A program made the position numbers and the translations under genes. Source: an uncultured Bacteroidota bacterium (GTDB lineage: Bacteria; Bacteroidota; Bacteroidia; Flavobacteriales; Flavobacteriaceae). From it: a stretch of 64,000 bases of DNA. The stretch spans positions 1 through 64,000 of the forward strand of contig CACIJH010000003.1 of assembly GCA_902586905.1 (NCBI GenBank). Reading direction: 5' to 3'. Positions 85 through 41,216 of this stretch are shown in pieces. A model generated the notes under the pieces. The model was not told the origin of the DNA and made no database searches. It saw only the letters and a list, made by a program, of their open reading frames with translations. How positions within the stretch are numbered: the stretch's first letter is position 1; each line of letters starts with the position of its first letter.

Positions 85-92
85 TATTTTTG
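85..92 (+). promoter_or_regulatory. Putative -7 element (TATTTTTG) of the carH-like gene promoter
   Basis: TATTTTTG fits the Bacteroidota -7 consensus TAnnTTTG and lies 32 bases before the ATG at 124. No clear TTTG -33 element is seen at the expected distance, so a regulated or weak promoter is plausible. The inverted repeat at 91-121 begins within the last two bases of this element, so a protein bound there should block this promoter. Confidence 0.4.
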
Positions 93-121
93 TTTAATGT
101 TTGTTAATTAAAAGTTAAACA
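91..121 (+). promoter_or_regulatory. Operator-like inverted repeat TGTTTAA-N17-TTAAACA before the carH-like gene
   Basis: The left arm TGTTTAA is at 91-97 and the right arm TTAAACA at 115-121, exact inverted 7-base arms with a 17-base AT-rich spacer. The right arm ends two bases before the ATG. The right half with its two preceding bases fits AnnTnnACA, the half-site pattern I recall for CarH proteins. Nearly the same arrangement precedes the photolyase operon (8385-8414) and recurs at 39232-39261. Autoregulation by the adjacent MerR protein is inferred. Confidence 0.5.
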
Positions 122-123
122 AA

Positions 124-1020
124 ATGAATCGGGTTAAAAATAGTTTTAGTATCAAAAATCTGGAGCACTTATCCGGAATCAAAGCCCACACAATCAGAAT
201 TTGGGAAAAAAGATACAATCTTTTTGAACCCGAACGAACAGAGACAAACATACGTCTCTACAATTTAAATAGTCTGCAGAAACTCCTCAATGTTTCGATG
301 CTATATAAAAATGGTTTCAAAATTTCGAAAATTGCAAAAATGGAGGCAGATGAAATCAAAAACAAGGTGCACTCCATAACCCTCCAAAAAAGTCCATACG
401 ACTGGTCACTTGGGTTGTTTAAGCTTTCGATGATCAATTTTGATCAACGTTTGTTTACCAACACCTTTGACGAGCTGATAGAAAAAATGAGTTTCGGTGA
501 AATCTTTCAGTCTATTTTCACACCACTCATGATTGAGCTTGGCGTTCTATGGCAAACAAACTCGATTAGTCCCTCGCACGAACACTTTATCACCAGCTTA
601 ATCAAACAAAAAATTCACTCACTCTGCGAAAAACTTCAAGAATCGCAACCAAACCATTCAGACAAAACCTATGTGTTGTATCTCCCAGATAATGAGATTC
701 ATGAGTTGGGGTTGCTGTATTTGAACTATGAAATACTCAATCGAGGATATAAAACAATTTTTTTAGGGCAATCTGTTCCTACAACCAGCTTGTCAAATTT
801 TCTAGAAAAATATGATAAAATGGTCTTTGTGTCCTGCTTTACCATTGAGCCAAACAGCGATCGTGTTAAGGAGTATTTAGATCATTTTGAGCAAGAAGTT
901 TTAGCTGGCGAGGGATCAGAATTATGGATTACAGGCTACCAATTGCAACACATGACAAACCATAAAAATCCAAAAATTCGGATTTTTGAATCTTCAGCAG
1001 ATTTAATAAAAGAGTTATAA
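124..1020 (+). CDS. carH: MerR-family B12-binding photoreceptor repressor (CarH/LitR-like)
   Basis: The 298-residue protein has an N-terminal MerR winged-helix domain (about 8-75, with IRIWEKRY at 25-31) and a C-terminal cobalamin-binding module. W143 is followed by nine residues and then E153-H154, the Wx9EH motif of CarH/LitR proteins that bind adenosylcobalamin. E191-x-H193-x-x-G196 with the downstream LG at 214-215 is the B12 fold motif, and H193 is the expected lower axial ligand. Known CarH proteins repress carotenoid genes in the dark and fall apart on illumination. The next genes, crtB and crtZ, fit that role. An inverted repeat just before the start suggests autoregulation. B12 binding and light response are inferred from motifs. 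Confidence 0.85.
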   Translation: MNRVKNSFSIKNLEHLSGIKAHTIRIWEKRYNLFEPERTETNIRLYNLNSLQKLLNVSMLYKNGFKISKIAKMEADEIKNKVHSITLQKSPYDWSLGLFKLSMINFDQRLFTNTFDELIEKMSFGEIFQSIFTPLMIELGVLWQTNSISPSHEHFITSLIKQKIHSLCEKLQESQPNHSDKTYVLYLPDNEIHELGLLYLNYEILNRGYKTIFLGQSVPTTSLSNFLEKYDKMVFVSCFTIEPNSDRVKEYLDHFEQEVLAGEGSELWITGYQLQHMTNHKNPKIRIFESSADLIKEL

Positions 1021-8384: not shown

Positions 8385-8414
8385 TGTTTAATCTTTTTTT
8401 TAATTAATTAAACA
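8385..8414 (+). promoter_or_regulatory. Operator-like inverted repeat TGTTTAA-N16-TTAAACA before the photolyase operon
   Basis: The left arm is TGTTTAA (8385-8391) and the right arm TTAAACA (8408-8414), with a 16-base spacer. As in front of the carH-like gene, the right arm ends exactly two bases before the ATG, so both genes start TTAAACAAAATG. The right half reads AATTAAACA, fitting AnnTnnACA. No exact TAnnTTTG -7 element is seen; TAATTTTTTG at 8377-8386 is the closest. Binding by the CarH-like protein is inferred. Confidence 0.5.
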
Positions 8415-8416
8415 AA

Positions 8417-8896
8417 ATGATATATTTGAAAAAAAAAGTGTACAGCTATACATCAGAGCAAAATTTACCAATCGATATTAAAGAGGCATGGGAATTTTTG
8501 TCAGATCCCAATAATCTAAAGACGATTACGCCAGATTATATGGGTTTTGATATCATTTCGGGTGCAGATCGTAAGATGTTCCCAGGGCAAATCATACAGT
8601 ATATCCTCACTCCTATTCTCAAGATTCCTTTTCGCTGGGTGACTGAAATCACTCATGTCGAACATGAGCGATACTTTGTTGACGAACAACGCTTTGGACC
8701 CTATACTTTTTGGCATCACAAACATTTTATTGAGGAAATCCCCAACGGGGTAAAAATGACAGATATCGTTGATTACAAACTTCCTTTGGGTTTGTTGGGA
8801 CGTTTTGCGCACTGGCTCTTTGTCAAGAACAAAGTGCGATCCATTTTTAATTATCGCGAGCAAAAGCTCGAAAGCATCTTTGGAAAATATAAATAG
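8417..8896 (+). CDS. SRPBCC (START-like) family protein, head of photolyase operon
   Basis: The 159-residue protein has the SRPBCC/polyketide-cyclase pattern. It opens with the strand YSYTSEQNLPIDIKEAWEFLSDPNNLKTITP, the central part includes RWVTEITHVEHERYFVDEQ, and a C-terminal helix (VRSIFNYREQKLESIF) would cover a hydrophobic pocket. There is no signal peptide. It is the first gene of a run in which every later gene lies within three bases of, or overlaps, its neighbour. Similar genes accompany photolyases in other bacteria, but the ligand and role are unknown. Confidence 0.8.
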   Translation: MIYLKKKVYSYTSEQNLPIDIKEAWEFLSDPNNLKTITPDYMGFDIISGADRKMFPGQIIQYILTPILKIPFRWVTEITHVEHERYFVDEQRFGPYTFWHHKHFIEEIPNGVKMTDIVDYKLPLGLLGRFAHWLFVKNKVRSIFNYREQKLESIFGKYK

Positions 8897-8899
8897 AAC

Positions 8900-9592
8900 A
8901 TGAAAAAGAATATCTTATTTATTGGAGGGTCGAGTGGCATTGGCCTCGCAACAGTGAAACTGCTTGCCGAAACCCACGAAGTATATGTAGCCTCTCGGAC
9001 ATCAGAGGCTCTAGCAGGGCTATCCATCAATCATCTCCCTTTTGATGTGACAACTGATGATTTATCAACGCTTGAACTGCCTGATGAATTGACGGGGCTG
9101 GTGTATTGTCCAGGCAGTATCAATTTACGTCCATTTAAAGGGCTTAAGCCAGAAGCTTTTGAAGCAGACTTCAAGATCAATGTTTTGGGCTTTGTCAATT
9201 GCATGCAAGCTGTTTTACCAAAGTTGACTACCAACAGTAGTGTGGTGTTGTACAGTACAGTCGCAGTGAAAGTGGGGATGCCATTTCACGCAAGTGTGGC
9301 TGCATCTAAGGGAGCCCTTGAGGGGCTTGGCAAGTCACTTGCTGCTGAGCTAGCACCCAACACTAGAGTCAATGTGATTGCTCCGTCAATTACCAATACC
9401 CCATTAGCAGATCGCTTTTTGAACAATGAAACAAAAATGGAAAAATCGGCACAGCGACACCCATTGAAGCGTGTTGGCAAAGCTGAAGACGTCGCATCAA
9501 TGACGCGTTTCTTGCTCAGGGATGAAAGCAGTTGGATGACTGGTCAAATCATTGGCTTGGATGGAGGGATGTCATCGCTAAACACACACTAA
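8900..9592 (+). CDS. Short-chain dehydrogenase-like protein lacking the catalytic Tyr
   Basis: The 230-residue protein has the SDR cofactor motif (FIGGSSGIGLATV, 7-19), an NVLG motif near 94 and the C-terminal GQIIGLDGG. The active-site Tyr of YxxxK is absent: the stretch reads HASVAASKGAL, placing K137 correctly but V133 where Tyr should be. Ser/Thr 119-120 fill the usual Ser position. It may bind NAD(P) without classical catalysis or use another acid. It begins three bases after the SRPBCC gene and ends one base before the photolyase start. Confidence 0.85.
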   Translation: MKKNILFIGGSSGIGLATVKLLAETHEVYVASRTSEALAGLSINHLPFDVTTDDLSTLELPDELTGLVYCPGSINLRPFKGLKPEAFEADFKINVLGFVNCMQAVLPKLTTNSSVVLYSTVAVKVGMPFHASVAASKGALEGLGKSLAAELAPNTRVNVIAPSITNTPLADRFLNNETKMEKSAQRHPLKRVGKAEDVASMTRFLLRDESSWMTGQIIGLDGGMSSLNTH

Positions 9593-9593
9593 A

Positions 9594-10895
9594 TTGGATT
9601 CTATTGCATTGTTTTGGTTTCGCAGAGACTTACGTCTAGATGACAATGTGGGTCTTTATTATACCTTGCAGAAAGAAGCGAAGGTACTTCCCATCTTTAT
9701 TTTCGACACTGATATCTTGAGTCGTTTGCCCAAAGACGATGCTCGTGTTTTCTTTTTGTTTCAGCAAATCGAAGATATGAACAGTCAGCTTGCCCAATCA
9801 AAGAAGAAAATTCATGTTTTCAGTGGCAAGCCGATCAATGTATTTAAAGAGATTTTAAAATCAAATAAGGTTCATGCCGTTTACACCAATCGAGATTATG
9901 AACCTTACGCCACTACAAGAGACTCCGAAATCAAAACTCTACTGGAAAAGATCAATATTACTTTCTCAACTTTCAAAGATCATGTCATTTTTGAGCAAGA
10001 CGAGGTCGTCAAGTCAGATGGAACTCCCTATCGTGTATATACACCTTATTCCAGAACTTGGCTGGCTGCCTTTTCAGAGGATAGAGATCTCAAGGACTAC
10101 ACTGTTGGGTCTTTTGAAAAACTTGTGAAACTTACAACACACAACAATCCAAGTTTGTCAGAGATTGGCTTCACAACATCAAAAATTGCTGTGCCGCAAT
10201 ATAATACTTCAAAACAAATCATCGATCAATATGAGGAGTTGAGAAATACACCCTCAGTTGCAGGCACTTCAAAAATAGGAGTTCACTTGCGTTTTGGTTC
10301 TGTGAGTGTTCGAAAAGCAGTTGCCAGAGCATTGCAATCTACAAATCAAACTTTTTTGAAGGAGTTGATCTGGCGTGAGTTTTTTATGCAAATATTATGG
10401 CATTTCCCACACACCGAAAATCAAAGTTTCAAGCCCCAATACGATCGAATAGAGTGGCGCAACAGTCCAGAAGACTTTCAGCGTTGGTGCGATGGCGAAA
10501 CAGGTTATCCATTTGTGGATGCTGGTATGAAGGAAATGAACCAAACTGGATTTATGCACAATCGAGTACGTATGCTTGTTGGTAGTTTTTTATGCAAACA
10601 TTTACTGATCGATTGGCGTTTGGGTGAGGCATATTTTGCCCAAAAGCTTTTGGATTATGAAATGGCGAGTAATGTTGGTAATTGGCAATGGGTCGCAGGA
10701 TGTGGGGTTGATGCAGCTCCCTATTTTAGGGTTTTTAATCCAACAGAGCAAATTAAAAAGTTTGATAAAAACCATGACTACATCAAAAAGTGGGTGCCCA
10801 ACTATCAATCGCCATCTTATCCCAAGCCGATCGTTGATCACAAAATGGCACGAGAGCGTTGTTTGGAAACCTATAAATCTGCCTTAAACAAATGA
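9594..10895 (+). CDS. phrB: Class I deoxyribodipyrimidine photolyase (CPD photolyase)
   Basis: The 433-residue flavoprotein would use blue/UV-A light to split cyclobutane pyrimidine dimers. The N-terminal antenna domain starts ALFWFRRDLRLDDN. The C-terminal FAD domain carries HLRFGSVSVR, ELIWREFFMQILW, GYPFVDAGMKEMNQTGFMHNRVRM and the flavin loop VGNWQWVAGCGVDAAPYFRVFNP with the Asn-containing NWQW segment intact. The start is TTG, one base after the SDR stop. The stop overlaps the next ATG (ATGA). Length is usual for class I enzymes. Confidence 0.93.
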   Translation: MDSIALFWFRRDLRLDDNVGLYYTLQKEAKVLPIFIFDTDILSRLPKDDARVFFLFQQIEDMNSQLAQSKKKIHVFSGKPINVFKEILKSNKVHAVYTNRDYEPYATTRDSEIKTLLEKINITFSTFKDHVIFEQDEVVKSDGTPYRVYTPYSRTWLAAFSEDRDLKDYTVGSFEKLVKLTTHNNPSLSEIGFTTSKIAVPQYNTSKQIIDQYEELRNTPSVAGTSKIGVHLRFGSVSVRKAVARALQSTNQTFLKELIWREFFMQILWHFPHTENQSFKPQYDRIEWRNSPEDFQRWCDGETGYPFVDAGMKEMNQTGFMHNRVRMLVGSFLCKHLLIDWRLGEAYFAQKLLDYEMASNVGNWQWVAGCGVDAAPYFRVFNPTEQIKKFDKNHDYIKKWVPNYQSPSYPKPIVDHKMARERCLETYKSALNK

Positions 10896-11038
10896 GAGGA
10901 GTCAAAAAAGCTGACCTCCCCGAAAAGCTTTGTTTGGTATGTGATCGACCCTTCAAGTGGCGCAAAAAATGGGAAAAAAATTGGACTGAAGTTAAATATT
11001 GTAGTCAAAAATGCAGGAAAAACAAAACACAGCTTTAG
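10892..11038 (+). CDS. DUF2256 zinc-finger-like mini-protein
   Basis: A 48-residue ORF, MRGVKKADLPEKLC... to ...KTQL. It has two CxxC-like pairs (LCLVCDRPF and YCSQKCRKN) separated by a W/K-rich stretch, the DUF2256 pattern that recurs beside cryptochrome and photolyase genes. A bound zinc is likely from the four Cys. Its ATG overlaps the photolyase stop by four bases and its 3' end overlaps the CRY-DASH gene by 28 bases, strong evidence of real translation despite its size. The function is unknown. Confidence 0.85.
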   Translation: MRGVKKADLPEKLCLVCDRPFKWRKKWEKNWTEVKYCSQKCRKNKTQL

Positions 11039-12306
11039 TTTGGTTTAGGAATGATCTTCGGATCGATGACAACCAATCGCTTTATGATGCAACAACAAAG
11101 CACGACAAGGTCATAGGGCTTGTTTTGATAGCAGATTTTTGGTTAAAAGAAACAGCGTTTGGATTCAAAAAAATGGAAGTTTTCAGAGCACGTTTTTTGA
11201 TCGAAACCATTGAAGATTTAAGGCAAGAACTCAAGACATTAAACATCCCTTTGATCGTAAAGGTTGACGATGGAACTTCTTTGAAACAACTTTGCGATCA
11301 ATATCAAATCACTGATTTGTACATGCAAGAGGAATGGACAAAAGAGGAAGTTGATCAAGAAAAAAATATTCCTGATACTGTCATTGTCCACAAGTCTTAC
11401 AGTCAATTTCTATTTCACCCTGATGATCTGCCTTTTGCAATTGAAAATCTTCCTGAAATTTTTACTGTTTTTCGTAAAGCTTGTGAAAAAAATAGTACAG
11501 TTCGACCCTGCACCCCAAAGCCCAGAAAGCTAGCAGACGAAAACGATCAAATTCTATCTAGTAAACCATTGACTTTACAGGAGCTCGGATATGCGCCATT
11601 TGAGATTCACCCCAATAGTGCCTTTCCCTTTCAAGGGGGGAGTCGTGCAGCAAGTGAACGATTAAATCACTATTTTTGGATAACTAAAAAGTTATCTTAC
11701 TACAAGAAAACAAGGAATGGATTATTGGGAACTGATTACAGTTCCAAATTTTCTTCATGGCTAGCAAACGGATCTATCTCTCCCAAATCAATTTATTGGT
11801 CGGTAAAAGATTATGAGCAAGAAATTGGTAAAAATCAATCGACTTATTGGCTCATTTTTGAATTGATATGGAGAGATTATTTCAAGTATGTTTCGTTGCG
11901 TCATGGCAATTCTATTTTCGTTGTTGGGGGAATCAAAAATAGGGAGTATGATTGGCGACAAAATCATCATGTATTCGACCAATGGATAAACGGCTCAACA
12001 GCCGAACCATTTGTGAATGCCAATATGCTGGAACTAAAAAATACTGGGTTTATGAGTAATCGTGGGAGACAAAATGTAGCTAGTTATTTTGCAAAAACAT
12101 TGCAAATGGATTGGCGTTTGGGTGCTGCTTATTTTGAATCCATGTTAATCGATTATGATGTCCACAGCAACTACGGCAATTGGATGTATAACGCTGGAGT
12201 TGGAAATGATCCTAGAGATCGCGTGTTTAATGTAGGCCTACAAGCAGAGCGTTATGATGGAAAAGGGAAATATCAGTCCACTTGGCTGCAAAAAACACTG
12301 TTTTAA
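11011..12306 (+). CDS. Cryptochrome DASH
   Basis: The 431-residue protein fits the CRY-DASH family: N-terminal ALVWFRNDLRIDDN, LIWRDYFKYVSLRHG, TGFMSNRGRQNVASYFAK, and the signature YDVHSNYGNWMYNAGVGNDPR in the flavin loop. CRY-DASH proteins bind FAD and a folate antenna and repair CPDs mainly in single-stranded DNA, sometimes with photoreceptor roles. It starts inside the DUF2256 gene. Its stop TAA shares one base with the next ATG. Confidence 0.93.
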   Translation: MQEKQNTALVWFRNDLRIDDNQSLYDATTKHDKVIGLVLIADFWLKETAFGFKKMEVFRARFLIETIEDLRQELKTLNIPLIVKVDDGTSLKQLCDQYQITDLYMQEEWTKEEVDQEKNIPDTVIVHKSYSQFLFHPDDLPFAIENLPEIFTVFRKACEKNSTVRPCTPKPRKLADENDQILSSKPLTLQELGYAPFEIHPNSAFPFQGGSRAASERLNHYFWITKKLSYYKKTRNGLLGTDYSSKFSSWLANGSISPKSIYWSVKDYEQEIGKNQSTYWLIFELIWRDYFKYVSLRHGNSIFVVGGIKNREYDWRQNHHVFDQWINGSTAEPFVNANMLELKNTGFMSNRGRQNVASYFAKTLQMDWRLGAAYFESMLIDYDVHSNYGNWMYNAGVGNDPRDRVFNVGLQAERYDGKGKYQSTWLQKTLF

Positions 12307-13838
12307 TGGAAGTTCGACTCATTCTTGGCGATCAACTCAATACCGAACACAGCTGGTTCGAGCAAGTCAATAGCGATGTGATTTATGTGATGTTTGAAAT
12401 GCGTCAGGAGACAAACTATGTCAAACATCATATACAGAAAGTCGTTGCCTTTTTTGGCGCCATGAGAAACTTTGCAAAAGCAAGAGAAAACGAAGGTCAT
12501 CAGTTTTTGTATTACACCCTCGATGACCCTGAGAATGAGCAAGATCTAACGTCTAATCTCAACAAAGTCATTTCACTTTTAGACGCAAATCGGTTTGCGT
12601 ATCAACTGCCGGATGAGTTTCGCCTAGACGACCAACTTCGTTCGTTTTGCAAGGGCTTAAGCATTCCTTCAAAGTCATATGACTCTGAACATTTTCTCAC
12701 CACAAGAGACGAGATGGCGCATTTTTTTGAAGGCAAAAAAAAATGGGTAATGGAGTTTTTCTATCGTTATATGCGTAAAAAATTTGATATCCTCATGGTG
12801 CATGACCAACCAGAGGGCGGGTCGTGGAATTATGATAAATTCAATCGCAACAAATGGAATGGATCTCCTGATATCCCAACTCCGTTTTATCCAAAAGTTG
12901 ATAATATCGATGTCATACAGAAAATGATTGAAGATGAGGGAATCAAAACACTTGGAACTTTCTCGAAAGACGATTTTCTCTTTCCAGTGACAAGAGAAGA
13001 AAGTATCGCCCAACTCGATTACTTTTGCGAGCATCTTCTTGCGCATTTTGGTACCTATCAAGATGCAATGCATCAAAAGCAAACCAATCTTTTTCATGCG
13101 AGAATATCTTTTGCCTTAAATGCAAAAATCATCAATCCACTCGAGGTGATAAACCATGCGGTTGATACTTATAGAAAACAGCCAGATGTCATTTCCCTTT
13201 CTCAAGTTGAGGGTTTTGTCAGGCAAGTGCTGGGTTGGCGTGAATACATCAGAGGGTTGTATTGGAAGGAAATGCCCTCTTACAAAAAGTTGAATGCTTT
13301 GGAAAACAACAACCCCCTTCCAGATTTCTATTGGACTGGAAAAACAAAGATGAATTGTCTGAGCACAACCATAAAAAATAGTTTAGAACACGCATATGCT
13401 CATCACATTCAAAGGCTTATGATTACTGGAAATTTTGCGCTACTTGCGCAAACCCATCCTGATGCTGTCGACGAGTGGTATTTGGGTATATATGCAGATG
13501 CTGTCGAATGGGTACAACTCCCAAATACGCGGGGAATGAGTCAATATGCAGATGGTGGTATGGTTGCTACCAAACCTTATGTTTCCTCGGGGTCTTATGT
13601 CAATAAGATGAGTAACTATTGTTCGTCGTGCAGCTATAACAACAAAAAGAGATTGGGAGATGACGCTTGCCCATTTAATAGCCTCTATTGGAATTTTTTA
13701 GATGATAAAAAAGACCAGCTCAAAAACAACAATCGCATGGGAATGATGCTGAATCTGTTGCGAAAAATCAATCCAGAGGAGTTGGCTGCCATCAAAACAC
13801 GAGCTTACGAAATCATTGCCAATCCCGATGCCTACTAA
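12306..13838 (+). CDS. Iron-sulfur bacterial (6-4) photolyase / cryptochrome (FeS-BCP)
   Basis: The 510-residue protein begins MEVRLILGDQL, the family's typical start. Four Cys at positions 351, 439, 442 and 455 match the 4Fe-4S ligands of Agrobacterium PhrB (Cys 350, 438, 441 and 454, as I recall). Other blocks are WREYIRGLYW and LEHAYAHHIQRLMITGNFALL. Family members repair (6-4) photoproducts and bind FAD and a lumazine antenna, whose precursor enzyme RibH is encoded nearby. I chose the ATG at 12306 over a TTG at 12282 that would reach into CRY-DASH. Confidence 0.92.
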   Translation: MEVRLILGDQLNTEHSWFEQVNSDVIYVMFEMRQETNYVKHHIQKVVAFFGAMRNFAKARENEGHQFLYYTLDDPENEQDLTSNLNKVISLLDANRFAYQLPDEFRLDDQLRSFCKGLSIPSKSYDSEHFLTTRDEMAHFFEGKKKWVMEFFYRYMRKKFDILMVHDQPEGGSWNYDKFNRNKWNGSPDIPTPFYPKVDNIDVIQKMIEDEGIKTLGTFSKDDFLFPVTREESIAQLDYFCEHLLAHFGTYQDAMHQKQTNLFHARISFALNAKIINPLEVINHAVDTYRKQPDVISLSQVEGFVRQVLGWREYIRGLYWKEMPSYKKLNALENNNPLPDFYWTGKTKMNCLSTTIKNSLEHAYAHHIQRLMITGNFALLAQTHPDAVDEWYLGIYADAVEWVQLPNTRGMSQYADGGMVATKPYVSSGSYVNKMSNYCSSCSYNNKKRLGDDACPFNSLYWNFLDDKKDQLKNNNRMGMMLNLLRKINPEELAAIKTRAYEIIANPDAY

Positions 13839-15306
13839 GTCAGAAGTATCGGTTTTTTGGTTTAAGAGAGATCTTAGGGTTCTCGATAACCCTGCGCTTC
13901 AAGCTGCTGTAATTGACCCTACACCTACCCTTTTGGTATATAATTTCGAACCTCTATTGACAGAGAACCATCACTATGACAAAAGACATTGGCAATTTGT
14001 ATTCGAAAGTTTGGAGGAACTCAATCATTTCTTTTCCCAATATGACACAAGAATCCTCATGAGCAGTTCAGACATACTGCAAACGTTTGAAGAAATACAG
14101 AAGCAATACACGATCAAAACGATATACAGTCATCAAGAAACTGGGCTTGCTTGCACCTATGCTAGAGATCAAGAGGTGGCTGAGTTTTGTAGTTCAACAT
14201 CGATCAAATGGAAAGAGTTTACGAATAATGGTGTTTTTCGGGGTTTGTCGAATCGAAAAAATTGGCGTAAAAAGTGGTATCAGTTTATGTCAGAACCCAT
14301 ACAAAAATGGGAAGCAACAAAGGAAGCATTTGTATCTATCGCTGCGATAGATGAGATCAATTTGCGACCTTTTGAATGGGCAAAACATACGACCGATCAA
14401 ATTCGCCAAAAGGGTGGCACAAAGCAAGGACTTGCCTATTTGAATAGTTTTATAAATGATCGTCATAAGTCGTATCAAAACTCGATTTCAAAGCCAGAAT
14501 TATCACGAAAAGCTTGTAGTCGATTATCTCCATATATTTCTTGGGGCAACTTGTCGGTTCGCTATGTTTGGCAAACTGCCGAGCAGGCCAAACGAAAGGG
14601 AGCATCGAAATTTCAACTCAATGCTTTCACATCAAGATTGCGATGGCAAGCCCACTTTATTCAAAAGTTTGAGATGGAGGATCGAATGGAGTTTGAGAGT
14701 ATCAACAAAGGATATGCATCACTGGACAAAGCAGTTGATGAAAGTTTGATACAAGCCTGGAAAGATGGGCAAACAGGCTTTCCATTGGTCGATGCATCCA
14801 TGCGATGTTTGGCCCAAACAGGTTACATCAATTTTCGAATGCGTGCGATGTTGGTATCGTTTTTCACCCATCATTTGTGGCAACCCTGGCAACTAGGCGT
14901 TTCACATCTGGCAAAACAGTTTTTAGATTTTGAACCTGGCATTCATTATCCTCAATTCCAAATGCAAGCAGGTGAAACTGGTATTAATATGTTGCGAATC
15001 TACAATCCAGTAAAAAATAGCTTAACACATGACCCTGAGGGGGTTTTTCTTTGTAAATGGGTTCCAGAGTTGAGTAAGCTTCCATTGCATCTACAGCATG
15101 AACCTTGGAATATCACAGCTATTGAGGAAGAACTTTATGATTTTTCTCTGGGGAAAGACTATCCTAAACCTGTTGTTGACTTACAAACTGCAGCAAGACA
15201 TGCTTCCAAGCAACTTTGGTCGATAAAAGGATCTGCAAAAGTCAGGAAAGAATCGAAACGCATACTTCTAAAGCACACATTGGCAGATAGAAACAACTTT
15301 GATTAG
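13828..15306 (+). CDS. Photolyase/cryptochrome-family protein with divergent flavin loop
   Basis: The 492-residue protein has the photolyase N-terminal domain (SVFWFKRDLRVLDNPAL) and FAD domain (SRLSPYISWGNLSVR, GQTGFPLVDASMRCLAQTGYINFRMRAM). The loop that reads NWQW...DAAPYFRIFNP in class I enzymes here reads FEPGIHYPQFQMQAG...IYNP (about 368-394), so the Asn facing flavin N5 is not in its usual context. This is a distinct subfamily I cannot name with certainty, and repair activity is unproven. I chose the ATG at 13828 over the TTG at 13816. It overlaps the preceding gene by 11 bases. Confidence 0.88.
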   Translation: MPTKSEVSVFWFKRDLRVLDNPALQAAVIDPTPTLLVYNFEPLLTENHHYDKRHWQFVFESLEELNHFFSQYDTRILMSSSDILQTFEEIQKQYTIKTIYSHQETGLACTYARDQEVAEFCSSTSIKWKEFTNNGVFRGLSNRKNWRKKWYQFMSEPIQKWEATKEAFVSIAAIDEINLRPFEWAKHTTDQIRQKGGTKQGLAYLNSFINDRHKSYQNSISKPELSRKACSRLSPYISWGNLSVRYVWQTAEQAKRKGASKFQLNAFTSRLRWQAHFIQKFEMEDRMEFESINKGYASLDKAVDESLIQAWKDGQTGFPLVDASMRCLAQTGYINFRMRAMLVSFFTHHLWQPWQLGVSHLAKQFLDFEPGIHYPQFQMQAGETGINMLRIYNPVKNSLTHDPEGVFLCKWVPELSKLPLHLQHEPWNITAIEEELYDFSLGKDYPKPVVDLQTAARHASKQLWSIKGSAKVRKESKRILLKHTLADRNNFD

Positions 15307-39059: not shown

Positions 39060-39173
39060 TTAGTCAATTATTGTACAAAAAGTAAAAGGTGTGCAAGTGC
39101 ACACCTTAAACAACTTAACCAAAAAAACAAACAAACCAAGAATTTGTTGAAAAGAAGCTATCCGTTTTTTCAT
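39060..39173 (-). CDS. 37-codon leader ORF upstream of the FabH-like gene (uncertain)
   Basis: The ORF starts MKKRIASFQQILGLFVFLVK and ends with a Cys/Thr/Phe-rich tail (VCTCTPFTFCTIID). It has a hydrophobic centre. It stops nine bases before the FabH-like ATG. The start codon lies in the loop of a seven-base stem (39157-39163 with 39198-39204). A terminator-like hairpin (39086-39107) covers its 3' third. This arrangement resembles a regulatory leader peptide, but I recognise no family, so chance is possible. Confidence 0.35.
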   Translation of the reverse strand: MKKRIASFQQILGLFVFLVKLFKVCTCTPFTFCTIID

Positions 39174-39213
39174 AGCAATAATTCCCAATTAAGAGTAGGA
39201 TAGCACCCTTTTC
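39075..39213 (-). ncRNA. Candidate structured leader or small RNA upstream of the FabH-like gene
   Basis: From the predicted start near 39213 the transcript first forms GCTATCC (39204-39198) pairing with GGATAGC (39163-39157) around a 34-base loop. It then forms a perfect nine-base hairpin AAGGTGTGC-ACTT-GCACACCTT (39107-39086) followed by TTTACTTTTT, a terminator-like end. The product would be a free RNA of about 140 bases or an attenuator controlling the FabH-like gene 25 bases beyond. No Rfam family could be assigned from memory. Confidence 0.45.
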
Positions 39214-39218
39214 GTGTA

Positions 39219-39250
39219 CAAATATATATTATGTTTAACTTTCTTACAAA
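39219..39250 (-). promoter_or_regulatory. Bacteroidota-type promoter reading toward the FabH-like gene (TTTG-N20-TATATTTG)
   Basis: On the minus strand TTTG (39250-39247) and TATATTTG (39226-39219) are separated by 20 bases, identical in spacing to the tRNA-Met promoter. The predicted start is near 39213. Operator arms of the inverted repeat at 39232-39261 fall between and beyond the two elements. Confidence 0.7.
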
Positions 39251-39261
39251 TTAATTAAACA
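39232..39261. promoter_or_regulatory. Third operator-like inverted repeat TGTTTAA-N16-TTAAACA
   Basis: The arms are TGTTTAA at 39232-39238 and TTAAACA at 39255-39261, with a 16-base spacer as at 8385-8414. The right half reads AATTAAACA, the same as in the photolyase operon site. It covers the -33 element and spacer of the minus-strand promoter and lies 77 bases before htpG on the plus strand. The regulated gene could be the FabH-like gene, htpG or both. Confidence 0.5.
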
Positions 39262-39338
39262 AAAAATATTAAAGTGTCATCTTGTCAGGGGGCAAACAAT
39301 GGTATTTTTTTTGCTAATACAACTGTAAATTTTAAAAA

Positions 39339-41216
39339 ATGAGTACAGGAAAAATTAATGTTGCAGTTGAAAATATCTTTCCACTAATCAAAAAATTTCT
39401 ATACAGCGATCATGAAATCTTTTTGAGAGAGTTGATTTCAAATGCAACAGACGCAACACTAAAACTAAAGCATCTCGCCCAAATAGGAGAAGCAAAAGTT
39501 GAGTATTGCAACCCACTGATTGAAGTCAAGGTTGACAAAAAAGGAAAAAAACTCCACATTATTGATCAGGGGGTTGGGATGACATCTGATGAAGTCAATA
39601 AATATATCAATGAAGTTGCCTTTTCTGGTGCAGAGGAGTTTTTGGAGCAATACAAGGACAGCGCGAAAGACAGTGGCATTATCGGACACTTTGGTTTAGG
39701 GTTTTACTCGGCCTTTATGGTTGCCAAAGAAGTTGAGATTATCACCAAATCATACAAAGATGAGCCAGCAGCCCATTGGACTTGTGATGGGTCTCCCGAA
39801 TTCACCTTGAAAAAGCATGACAAAAAAGAAAGAGGTACAGAAATCATTTTGCACATCGACAAAGATTCGAAAGAATTTTTGGAAGACACGCAGATTCGTT
39901 CTTTACTCACAAAGTACAACAAGTTTATGCCCATTCCTATCAAAATGGGTACAAAAGAAATTGCAAAGACTGAAGGGGATGGTGATGATGCCAGGGAAGT
40001 AAAAGAAGTTGTAGATGATATCATCAATAACCCCTCACCTGCTTGGATTCAAAAACCGACAGATTTGAAGGATGAAGATTATAATGATTTTTATCGAGAG
40101 CTATATCCGACGCAATTTGAAGAACCTTTATTTCAAATACATCTCAATGTTGACTATCCCTTTCACCTCACTGGAATTCTCTATTTCCCAAAAATTTCCA
40201 ACGATTTAAACTTTCAAAAGGATCGTATTCAACTCTATCAAAATCAAGTGTTTGTCACTGATAATGTAGAAGGGATTGTACCAGAATTTTTGACCATGCT
40301 TCGTGGTGTTATCGATTCTCCAGACATTCCTTTAAACGTGTCTAGAAGCTATTTGCAAGCAGATGGAAATGTCAAAAAAATTAGCAATTATATCACTCGA
40401 AAAGTAGCAGACAAGCTCAAATCACTCTTCAAAAAAGACAGAGAGGCTTTCCAAGAAAAATGGAATGATATAAAAGTTGTGATTGAGTACGGCATGCTTT
40501 CAGAAGACAAGTTCTTTGAAAAGGCAAAGGATTTTGCACTGTTTCCAACCACAACAGGCGACTATTTCACTTTTGAGGAGCTGAAAGAACAAACAAAAGA
40601 TGCGCAAACCGATAAAGACGGAAAGCTTGTTCAGCTTTACGCATCAAATATAGATGAGCAACATGCATATATCGAAGCTGCAAAAGCAAAAGGATACACT
40701 GTCTTATTGCTTGATTCACCAATTGTGAGTCATCTTCTTCAAAAATTAGAAACAAATGAAGAAAATCTCACCTTCACAAGGGTGGATGCAGATCAAATCG
40801 ATAAGCTTATTGTTAAAGAAGATTCAACGCCATCAAAATTGAGTGAAGAAAATCAAGAAAAACTCAAAACACTTGTTTTGGGAATCGTACCAAAAGCAAC
40901 CTATACTGTACAACTCGAACCAATGGACAGTAAAGCTTTGCCGTTTTTGATTACGCAACCTGAGTTTATGCGAAGAATGAAAGAGATGCAGCAGACAGCT
41001 GGAGGTGGTATGTTTGGTGGAAATATGCCAGAAATGTACAACCTGATTGTAAACATGAACCATCCATTAGTCAGTCAGATTTTAGAAACGAAAACGAAGA
41101 AAAAACAAGAACGACTGATCAAACAATCTGTCGATCTTGCACGACTGAGCCAAAACCTGTTGAAAGGAGAAGAACTCACTTCCTTTATCAATCGAAGTTT
41201 TGACATGATCAAATAA
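39339..41216 (+). CDS. htpG: Chaperone HtpG (Hsp90)
   Basis: A 625-residue ATP-dependent chaperone. The GHKL ATPase N-domain shows FLYSDHEIFLRELISNATDA, IIDQGVGMT and GLGFYSAFMVA. The middle domain has FPLYNVSRSYLQAD-type features (IPLNVSRSYLQAD). The C-terminal dimerisation domain is MRRMKEMQQ onward with a short gap typical of Bacteroidota. A strong terminator follows. It is divergent from the FabH-like gene. Confidence 0.95.
   Translation: MSTGKINVAVENIFPLIKKFLYSDHEIFLRELISNATDATLKLKHLAQIGEAKVEYCNPLIEVKVDKKGKKLHIIDQGVGMTSDEVNKYINEVAFSGAEEFLEQYKDSAKDSGIIGHFGLGFYSAFMVAKEVEIITKSYKDEPAAHWTCDGSPEFTLKKHDKKERGTEIILHIDKDSKEFLEDTQIRSLLTKYNKFMPIPIKMGTKEIAKTEGDGDDAREVKEVVDDIINNPSPAWIQKPTDLKDEDYNDFYRELYPTQFEEPLFQIHLNVDYPFHLTGILYFPKISNDLNFQKDRIQLYQNQVFVTDNVEGIVPEFLTMLRGVIDSPDIPLNVSRSYLQADGNVKKISNYITRKVADKLKSLFKKDREAFQEKWNDIKVVIEYGMLSEDKFFEKAKDFALFPTTTGDYFTFEELKEQTKDAQTDKDGKLVQLYASNIDEQHAYIEAAKAKGYTVLLLDSPIVSHLLQKLETNEENLTFTRVDADQIDKLIVKEDSTPSKLSEENQEKLKTLVLGIVPKATYTVQLEPMDSKALPFLITQPEFMRRMKEMQQTAGGGMFGGNMPEMYNLIVNMNHPLVSQILETKTKKKQERLIKQSVDLARLSQNLLKGEELTSFINRSFDMIK

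Follow-up and report, generated by a model that had tools for sequence, protein, structure and literature searches.

A candidate small RNA in a putative CarH-type regulon of Flavobacteriaceae carries a start-codon-like loop complementary to a second small RNA

The region upstream of the fabH-like gene in the window, by which we mean the whole 64,000-nucleotide stretch of DNA analysed, appears to be a stand-alone gene for a small regulatory RNA, designated A, rather than a leader of fabH, and sequence comparison across the family supports this assignment well. The hairpin loop of A is predicted to pair with a second small RNA, designated B, and both the A–B complementarity and the structure of A are strongly supported by the genomes compared. 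We consider it probable that A acts in trans as a CarH-switched mimic that captures B and relieves whatever B represses.

Results

Organization of the small RNA A locus

Features of the locus and of related sites in the window are listed in Table 1. The first-pass annotation had described, on the minus strand, a promoter of the form TTTG-N20-TATATTTG that is overlapped by an inverted repeat and followed by a seven-base stem enclosing a start codon and by a terminator hairpin with a T-rich tail, and each of these elements was found. Three copies of the inverted repeat were present in the window, compared with 0.04 expected from shuffles. The seven-base stem (GCTATCC/GGATAGC), which encloses the ATG at 39173-39171, proved to belong to a longer, imperfect helix of ~15 bp formed by the two arms of hairpin I. 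The terminator was kept in 145 of 150 homologues, and its tail stops ~27 bases short of the fabH-like gene, in agreement with the annotation. Transcription of A probably starts near 39213, and the folding of the unit was more stable than that of shuffled sequences (z = -3.9).

Table 1 Positions of small RNA A, its parts, and associated features in the window
Feature	Position	Strand	Remarks
Operator before CarH-like gene	91-121	.	Same repeat as that of A; from repeat search of the window
CarH-like regulator	124..1020	+	MerR + B12-binding_2; Wx9EH at residue 143, ExHxxG at 191
Second regulon operator	8385..8414	.	Before SRPBCC-SDR-photolyase gene cluster (8417-15306)
37-codon ORF of first-pass annotation	39060..39173	-	Judged not to be a gene
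Small RNA A	39078..39213	-	~136 nt; both ends predicted from the positions of promoter and terminator
Intrinsic terminator	39078..39107	-	Hairpin 39107-39086 and T-rich tail
U-rich conserved linker	39108..39148	-	Core TTGGTTAAGTTGTTT
Hairpin I, 3' arm	39149..39163	-	GGATAGCTTCTTTTC
Loop	39166..39186	-	GGGAATTATTGCTATGAAAAA; complement of a segment of B, with two U-U mismatches in own genus
Hairpin I, 5' arm	39198..39213	-	GAAAAGGGTGCTATCC
Bacteroidota-type promoter	39219..39250	-	TTTG 39250-39247, N20, TATATTTG 39226-39219
Operator of A	39232..39261	.	Inverted repeat TGTTTAA-N16-TTAAACA; overlaps -33 box
htpG	39339..41216	+	Divergent from A and kept next to it in most genera

The sequence of hairpin I changes from genus to genus while that of the loop, AUUGCUAUGAAAA, stays constant; within the genus, hardly any change is seen in the loop, linker, and terminator, and the stem varies on both sides. 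Hairpin I was examined by permutation of its arms between genomes, a test that needs no alignment. The arms belonging to the same genome gave a mean pairing energy of -12.05, compared with -8.48 for permuted arms (z = -17.9), with the related sequences in the test being non-independent. When 59 sequences were aligned by model fitting, standard pairs made up 88.9% of the pair cells compared with 59.2% after shuffling, and the covariation score was 0.641 compared with 0.201. Given that this alignment leans towards structure, the arm-swap test is the stronger evidence. Hairpin I thus appears to be maintained by compensatory change, a conclusion that is strongly supported.

The U-rich linker is conserved about as well as the loop. 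A search of 14 genomes for its 13-nt complement, with one mismatch, yielded no excess over a reversed control, and the linker is perhaps a protein site.

Distribution of small RNA A

Small RNA A was detected in 12 of the 13 genomes of the genus; the sole member without a detected copy (G011) is 86% complete and contains B. The family was searched with a covariance model and then with an IUPAC pattern, and A was found in 54 of 299 sampled Flavobacteriaceae genomes, representing 48 of 236 genera, nearly always as a single copy and with no match to the reversed-pattern control. Named genomes among the matches listed include those of Zobellia, Maribacter, Flagellimonas/Allomuricauda, Croceitalea, Pricia, Robiginitalea, Galbibacter, Aequorivita, Cellulophaga, and Ulvibacterium, along with others. 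Positions used to collect the sequences are conserved through the pattern selection itself, and two model matches (L026 and L031) in which nothing but the 3' part of A seemed to be shared were excluded. A TAnnTTTG box lies within 100 nt in 96 of the 152 homologues, and the -33 and -7 boxes are conserved. An order-wide search gave weak matches outside Flavobacteriaceae, of which those with the loop motif, as judged by inspection, were without the whole unit; we therefore claim A for Flavobacteriaceae only.

A covariance search over flavobacterial genomes had been put forward in the first-pass annotation as a check on the unit. The stem of A covaries and the unit recurs; the ORF does not. A small RNA of a CarH-like regulon with its 3' end at the hairpin, one of the two possibilities that the annotation had raised, is well supported by the operator, promoter, covarying stem, and terminator conserved in 48 sampled genera.

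Small RNA B and its complementarity to the loop of A

The complement of the A loop, TTTTCATAGCAA, was sought in 14 genomes, and 30 of the resulting loci were examined. Among these, five genera had TTTTCATAGCAA 110-127 nt upstream of one shared gene for an ABC-transporter ATPase and behind dnaJ, both genes having been named by inspection of their translations. The site is laid out like a small RNA gene, with a TATATTTG box, a small hairpin, a fixed UUUUCUUUUUCAUAGCAAUUUUUUUCCC segment, and a terminator. Among 77 unique B sequences, the terminator was present in all 77 and a TAnnTTTG box in 76 (7.5 in shuffles), the latter at a near-fixed distance. The B pattern matched 237 of the 299 family genomes and 192 of the 236 genera, with no match in the control, and across 395 genomes of the class its matches were found in Flavobacteriaceae only. 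In the genome that contains the window, B lies just behind dnaJ (G000:C2:1168). A wider pattern matched all 13 genomes of the genus, with some of these matches being the antisense strand of A. Within a single genus, two genomes (G282 and G057) carry 6 to 8 B pattern matches each; several copies of B stand there in tandem at intervals of a few hundred bases, and every copy has a hairpin and terminator of its own (L351 and L352).

The consensus of the A loop, GGGAAAAAUUGCUAUGAAAAAG, is the complement of the fixed segment of B. For 40 genome pairs, the A–B duplex had a mean energy of -26.0 kcal/mol, whereas shuffling B gave a mean of -10.0 kcal/mol; the native energy lay beyond every one of 100 shuffles in each of the 40 pairs. 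The longest perfect A–B run was up to 20 nt, with a median length of 14 nt; in the genome of the window a run of 14 nt is followed by two U-U mismatches and then by GGGAA. B was present in 53 of the 54 genomes with A (p = 2.5e-5, calculated with kinship ignored). The first base of the loop AUG is A in 147 of the 152 homologues and G in 5, either of which pairs with the U of B, although this is weak support for pairing because the collecting patterns permitted those two bases only.

Additional A–B covariation (GUGGGA/CCCAC, AUGGGA/CCCAU) was considered and fitted in 6 of 7 cases; these are too few and are phylogenetically dependent, and this candidate was set aside. In the genome of the window, the linker of A is predicted to contact the 5' end of B through UUGGUU-AACCAA. 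Outside A and B, the 12-nt complement of the loop occurred at ~37 sites in 14 genomes compared with 35 for the reversed control, a number not clearly above background. In a target scan of 51 window genes with the loop and the linker, rplK and rplA came out at the top for the loop (z of about -3.8 and -3.7, respectively), and the predicted rplA site covers the rplA start codon; these are tentative candidates that we do not put forward as targets.

CarH-like regulator and its operator

The Wx9EH and ExHxxG motifs, which are marks of CarH photoreceptors (PMC8156234), were found in the regulator encoded in the window and in all 30 relatives examined. A scripted search of the window protein for the SxV/T part of the full ExHx2G-x41-SxV/T-GG motif gave no match, and we therefore refer to the regulator as CarH-like. 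Repeats of the TGTTTAA-N16-TTAAACA type occur at five sites in the entire genome, three of them in the window. The half-sites match the CarH core AnnTnnACA by inspection, but they are inverted instead of direct.

GTTTAA-N16-TTAAAC was found in 93 of the 152 A promoters, compared with 0.2 in shuffles, and with identical spacing in 91; this strict operator was absent from the other 59, a considerable gap in the case for control by CarH. A looser pair of AnnTnnACA half-sites was found in 39 of the 152 promoters, compared with 2.0 in shuffled sequences. Of the 54 genomes with A, 53 also encode a CarH-like protein (p = 8e-5, kinship again being ignored). Control of A by CarH, for which the circumstantial support is good, is what these observations suggest.

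Operator copies were also seen elsewhere in the genome. One stands beside an msrA-folE pair (L142, G000:C4:26135), with gene names read from the translations, and folE next to an operator would fit the folate antenna of photolyases. Another precedes a TrpF-like gene, so named from its translation, that is followed by a gene for a small membrane protein (L143, G000:C21:6012). In nearly all carH relatives (L092-L117), a TTTGTTTAA half-site adjoins the -7 box immediately ahead of the start codon, an arrangement that suggests carH autoregulation. In one of these (L102, from G120), the spacer of the carH operator contains the same sequence as the A loop, TTGCTATGAAAA, read in the direction of carH, which may be either chance or a further B site.

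Discussion

Proposed action of A and alternative readings

Of the mechanism that we propose, the anatomy of the genes, the structure, the complementarity of A and B, and their co-occurrence are supported by sequence, whereas the binding of CarH, the light response of A, the direction of the A–B effect, and the mRNA targets of B are inferred. The AdoB12-bound CarH-like repressor would occupy the inverted repeat in the dark and block the promoter. Light or a shortage of AdoB12 would release CarH, and A would then be transcribed from ~39213 to the terminator near 39078. The 5' hairpin of A would present the fixed loop (GGGAA..AUUGCUAUGAAAA), which would base-pair with the single-stranded UUUUCUUUUUCAUAGCAAUUUUUUCCC segment of B, so that A, as a mimic of a translation start, would sequester B and its targets would be relieved. 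A role for A as a sponge is favoured because B is widespread in genomes where A was not detected whereas A is nearly confined to genomes with B, and because A resembles the start of a translated gene but is non-coding. Whether a B12-photoreceptor regulon acts here at the RNA level, with A as a light-induced, dedicated sponge RNA that neutralizes family-wide B by start-codon mimicry and with the translation of B's targets shifting at once, we regard as evenly balanced.

The direction might also be the opposite, with A being an effector that acts on mRNAs through its loop or linker and B being an antagonist that keeps A silent as long as light has not raised A above B. The A–B complementarity is symmetrical and would serve either direction, and the linker is a second conserved, single-stranded part of A for which B does not account. 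However, B occurs in many genomes without detected A (237 compared with 54 of 299), and the complement of the linker is at background level, so that we rate this direction as a possibility of lesser weight than capture of B by A.

That A might be an independent small RNA of the CarH regulon, or a binder of protein through its loop and linker, with the match to B reflecting a protein or target motif common to the two RNAs, would also provide a place for the linker, which is conserved like the loop and has no explanation from B. This account is unlikely: the match is long (median run of 14 nt, up to 20), exceeds shuffles in 40 of 40 pairs, and is antisense, which argues against a shared motif, given that the two RNAs would carry such a motif in one and the same orientation.

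The other possibility raised by the first-pass annotation, attenuation of the fabH-like gene with a leader ORF, was not borne out, since the ORF is unconserved and fabH lies downstream in only some loci. The usual constant neighbour of A is the divergent htpG. The promoter side of htpG (39262-39330, plus strand) is conserved too, with TGTCATCTTGTCAG and a GGTATTTTTTTTG stretch recurring in relatives. In part of the loci only, fabH follows A, at 126-387 nt from the loop core; the others have different genes downstream and no fabH within the stretch examined. A variable downstream gene together with a constant htpG argues against a fabH leader. In the genus of the window, fabH shares the strand of A and begins a short way past the terminator; inspection showed no clear promoter for it, and partial read-through into fabH may occur there. 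A leader with conditional read-through of the terminator is nevertheless highly improbable, given that many loci have another gene downstream, that fabH is elsewhere as far as 387 nt from the loop core, that the A unit is conserved whatever lies downstream, and that no leader peptide is conserved.

The 37-codon ORF in the annotation is present but is not conserved: it is open solely in L001-L003 and is reduced to 3-5 codons in L004-L012, with an in-frame ORF also being present in L013. Among 152 unique homologues, the ORF has a median length of 7 codons and comprises 10 codons or fewer in 86 and 5 or fewer in 62; no conserved coding sequence was found in A among them. The base at -3 of the loop AUG is G in all 152, G having been part of the search pattern. 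In Flavobacterium, A at -3 favours initiation (PMC6847099), and the G at this position of small RNA A therefore counts against translation of the ORF. The start codon in the loop appears to be better explained by pairing with B than by a leader ORF. Although the ORF is open and similar in L001-L003 and in frame in L013, the short ORFs and the invariant G, rather than A, at -3 make it exceedingly improbable that the locus is a gene for a 37-residue small protein.

Comparison with known systems

Post-transcriptional regulation is little known in Flavobacteriaceae. If the proposed reading is true, each of two small RNA families points to the other as its partner, one of the two being close to universal across a major marine family, and a small RNA is placed inside a CarH-type regulon. 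The A–B model is directly testable in cultured genera, among them Zobellia, Maribacter, Cellulophaga, and Robiginitalea.

The regulon resembles the CarH/LitR regulons of Myxococcus and Thermus (PMC8156234) in that it has a MerR-B12 regulator with Wx9EH and ExHxxG and a putative operator over the promoter, and in that carotenoid-type and photolyase genes here share one repeat. It differs from them in the arrangement of the AnnTnnACA half-sites, which are inverted here and form 11-bp direct repeats there, and in the putative inclusion of a small RNA, for which there is no precedent in the open literature searched. Small RNAs of Flavobacterium psychrophilum have been described as Rfp1-89, with Rfp18 being conserved in its genus (PMC9723704). 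They are independent structured transcripts from this same family, as A and B are predicted to be; no link to light was found for them in the literature searched, whereas one is proposed for A. Models of Rfam 15 gave nothing credible for A or B at gathering or relaxed thresholds, and both families are likewise absent from the limited open literature searched, where the Rfp RNAs (PMC9723704) were compared by description only.

Both sponges and CarH regulons are of known kinds, and it is their combination that is unrecorded in Rfam 15 and in the limited open literature searched. Bacterial small RNA sponges include SroC for GcvB and RbsZ for RybB. Like these sponges, A contains a sequence that resembles a target and is complementary to the region through which another small RNA would pair; unlike them, it is preceded by a promoter of its own that bears a CarH-type operator, its display hairpin covaries, and its loop resembles a start codon. 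The role of A as a sponge is putative. Small RNAs related to light and singlet oxygen are known in Rhodobacter. Their regulators and sequences are unrelated to those described here, but the proposed system would share with them a layer of small RNA in the response to light stress.
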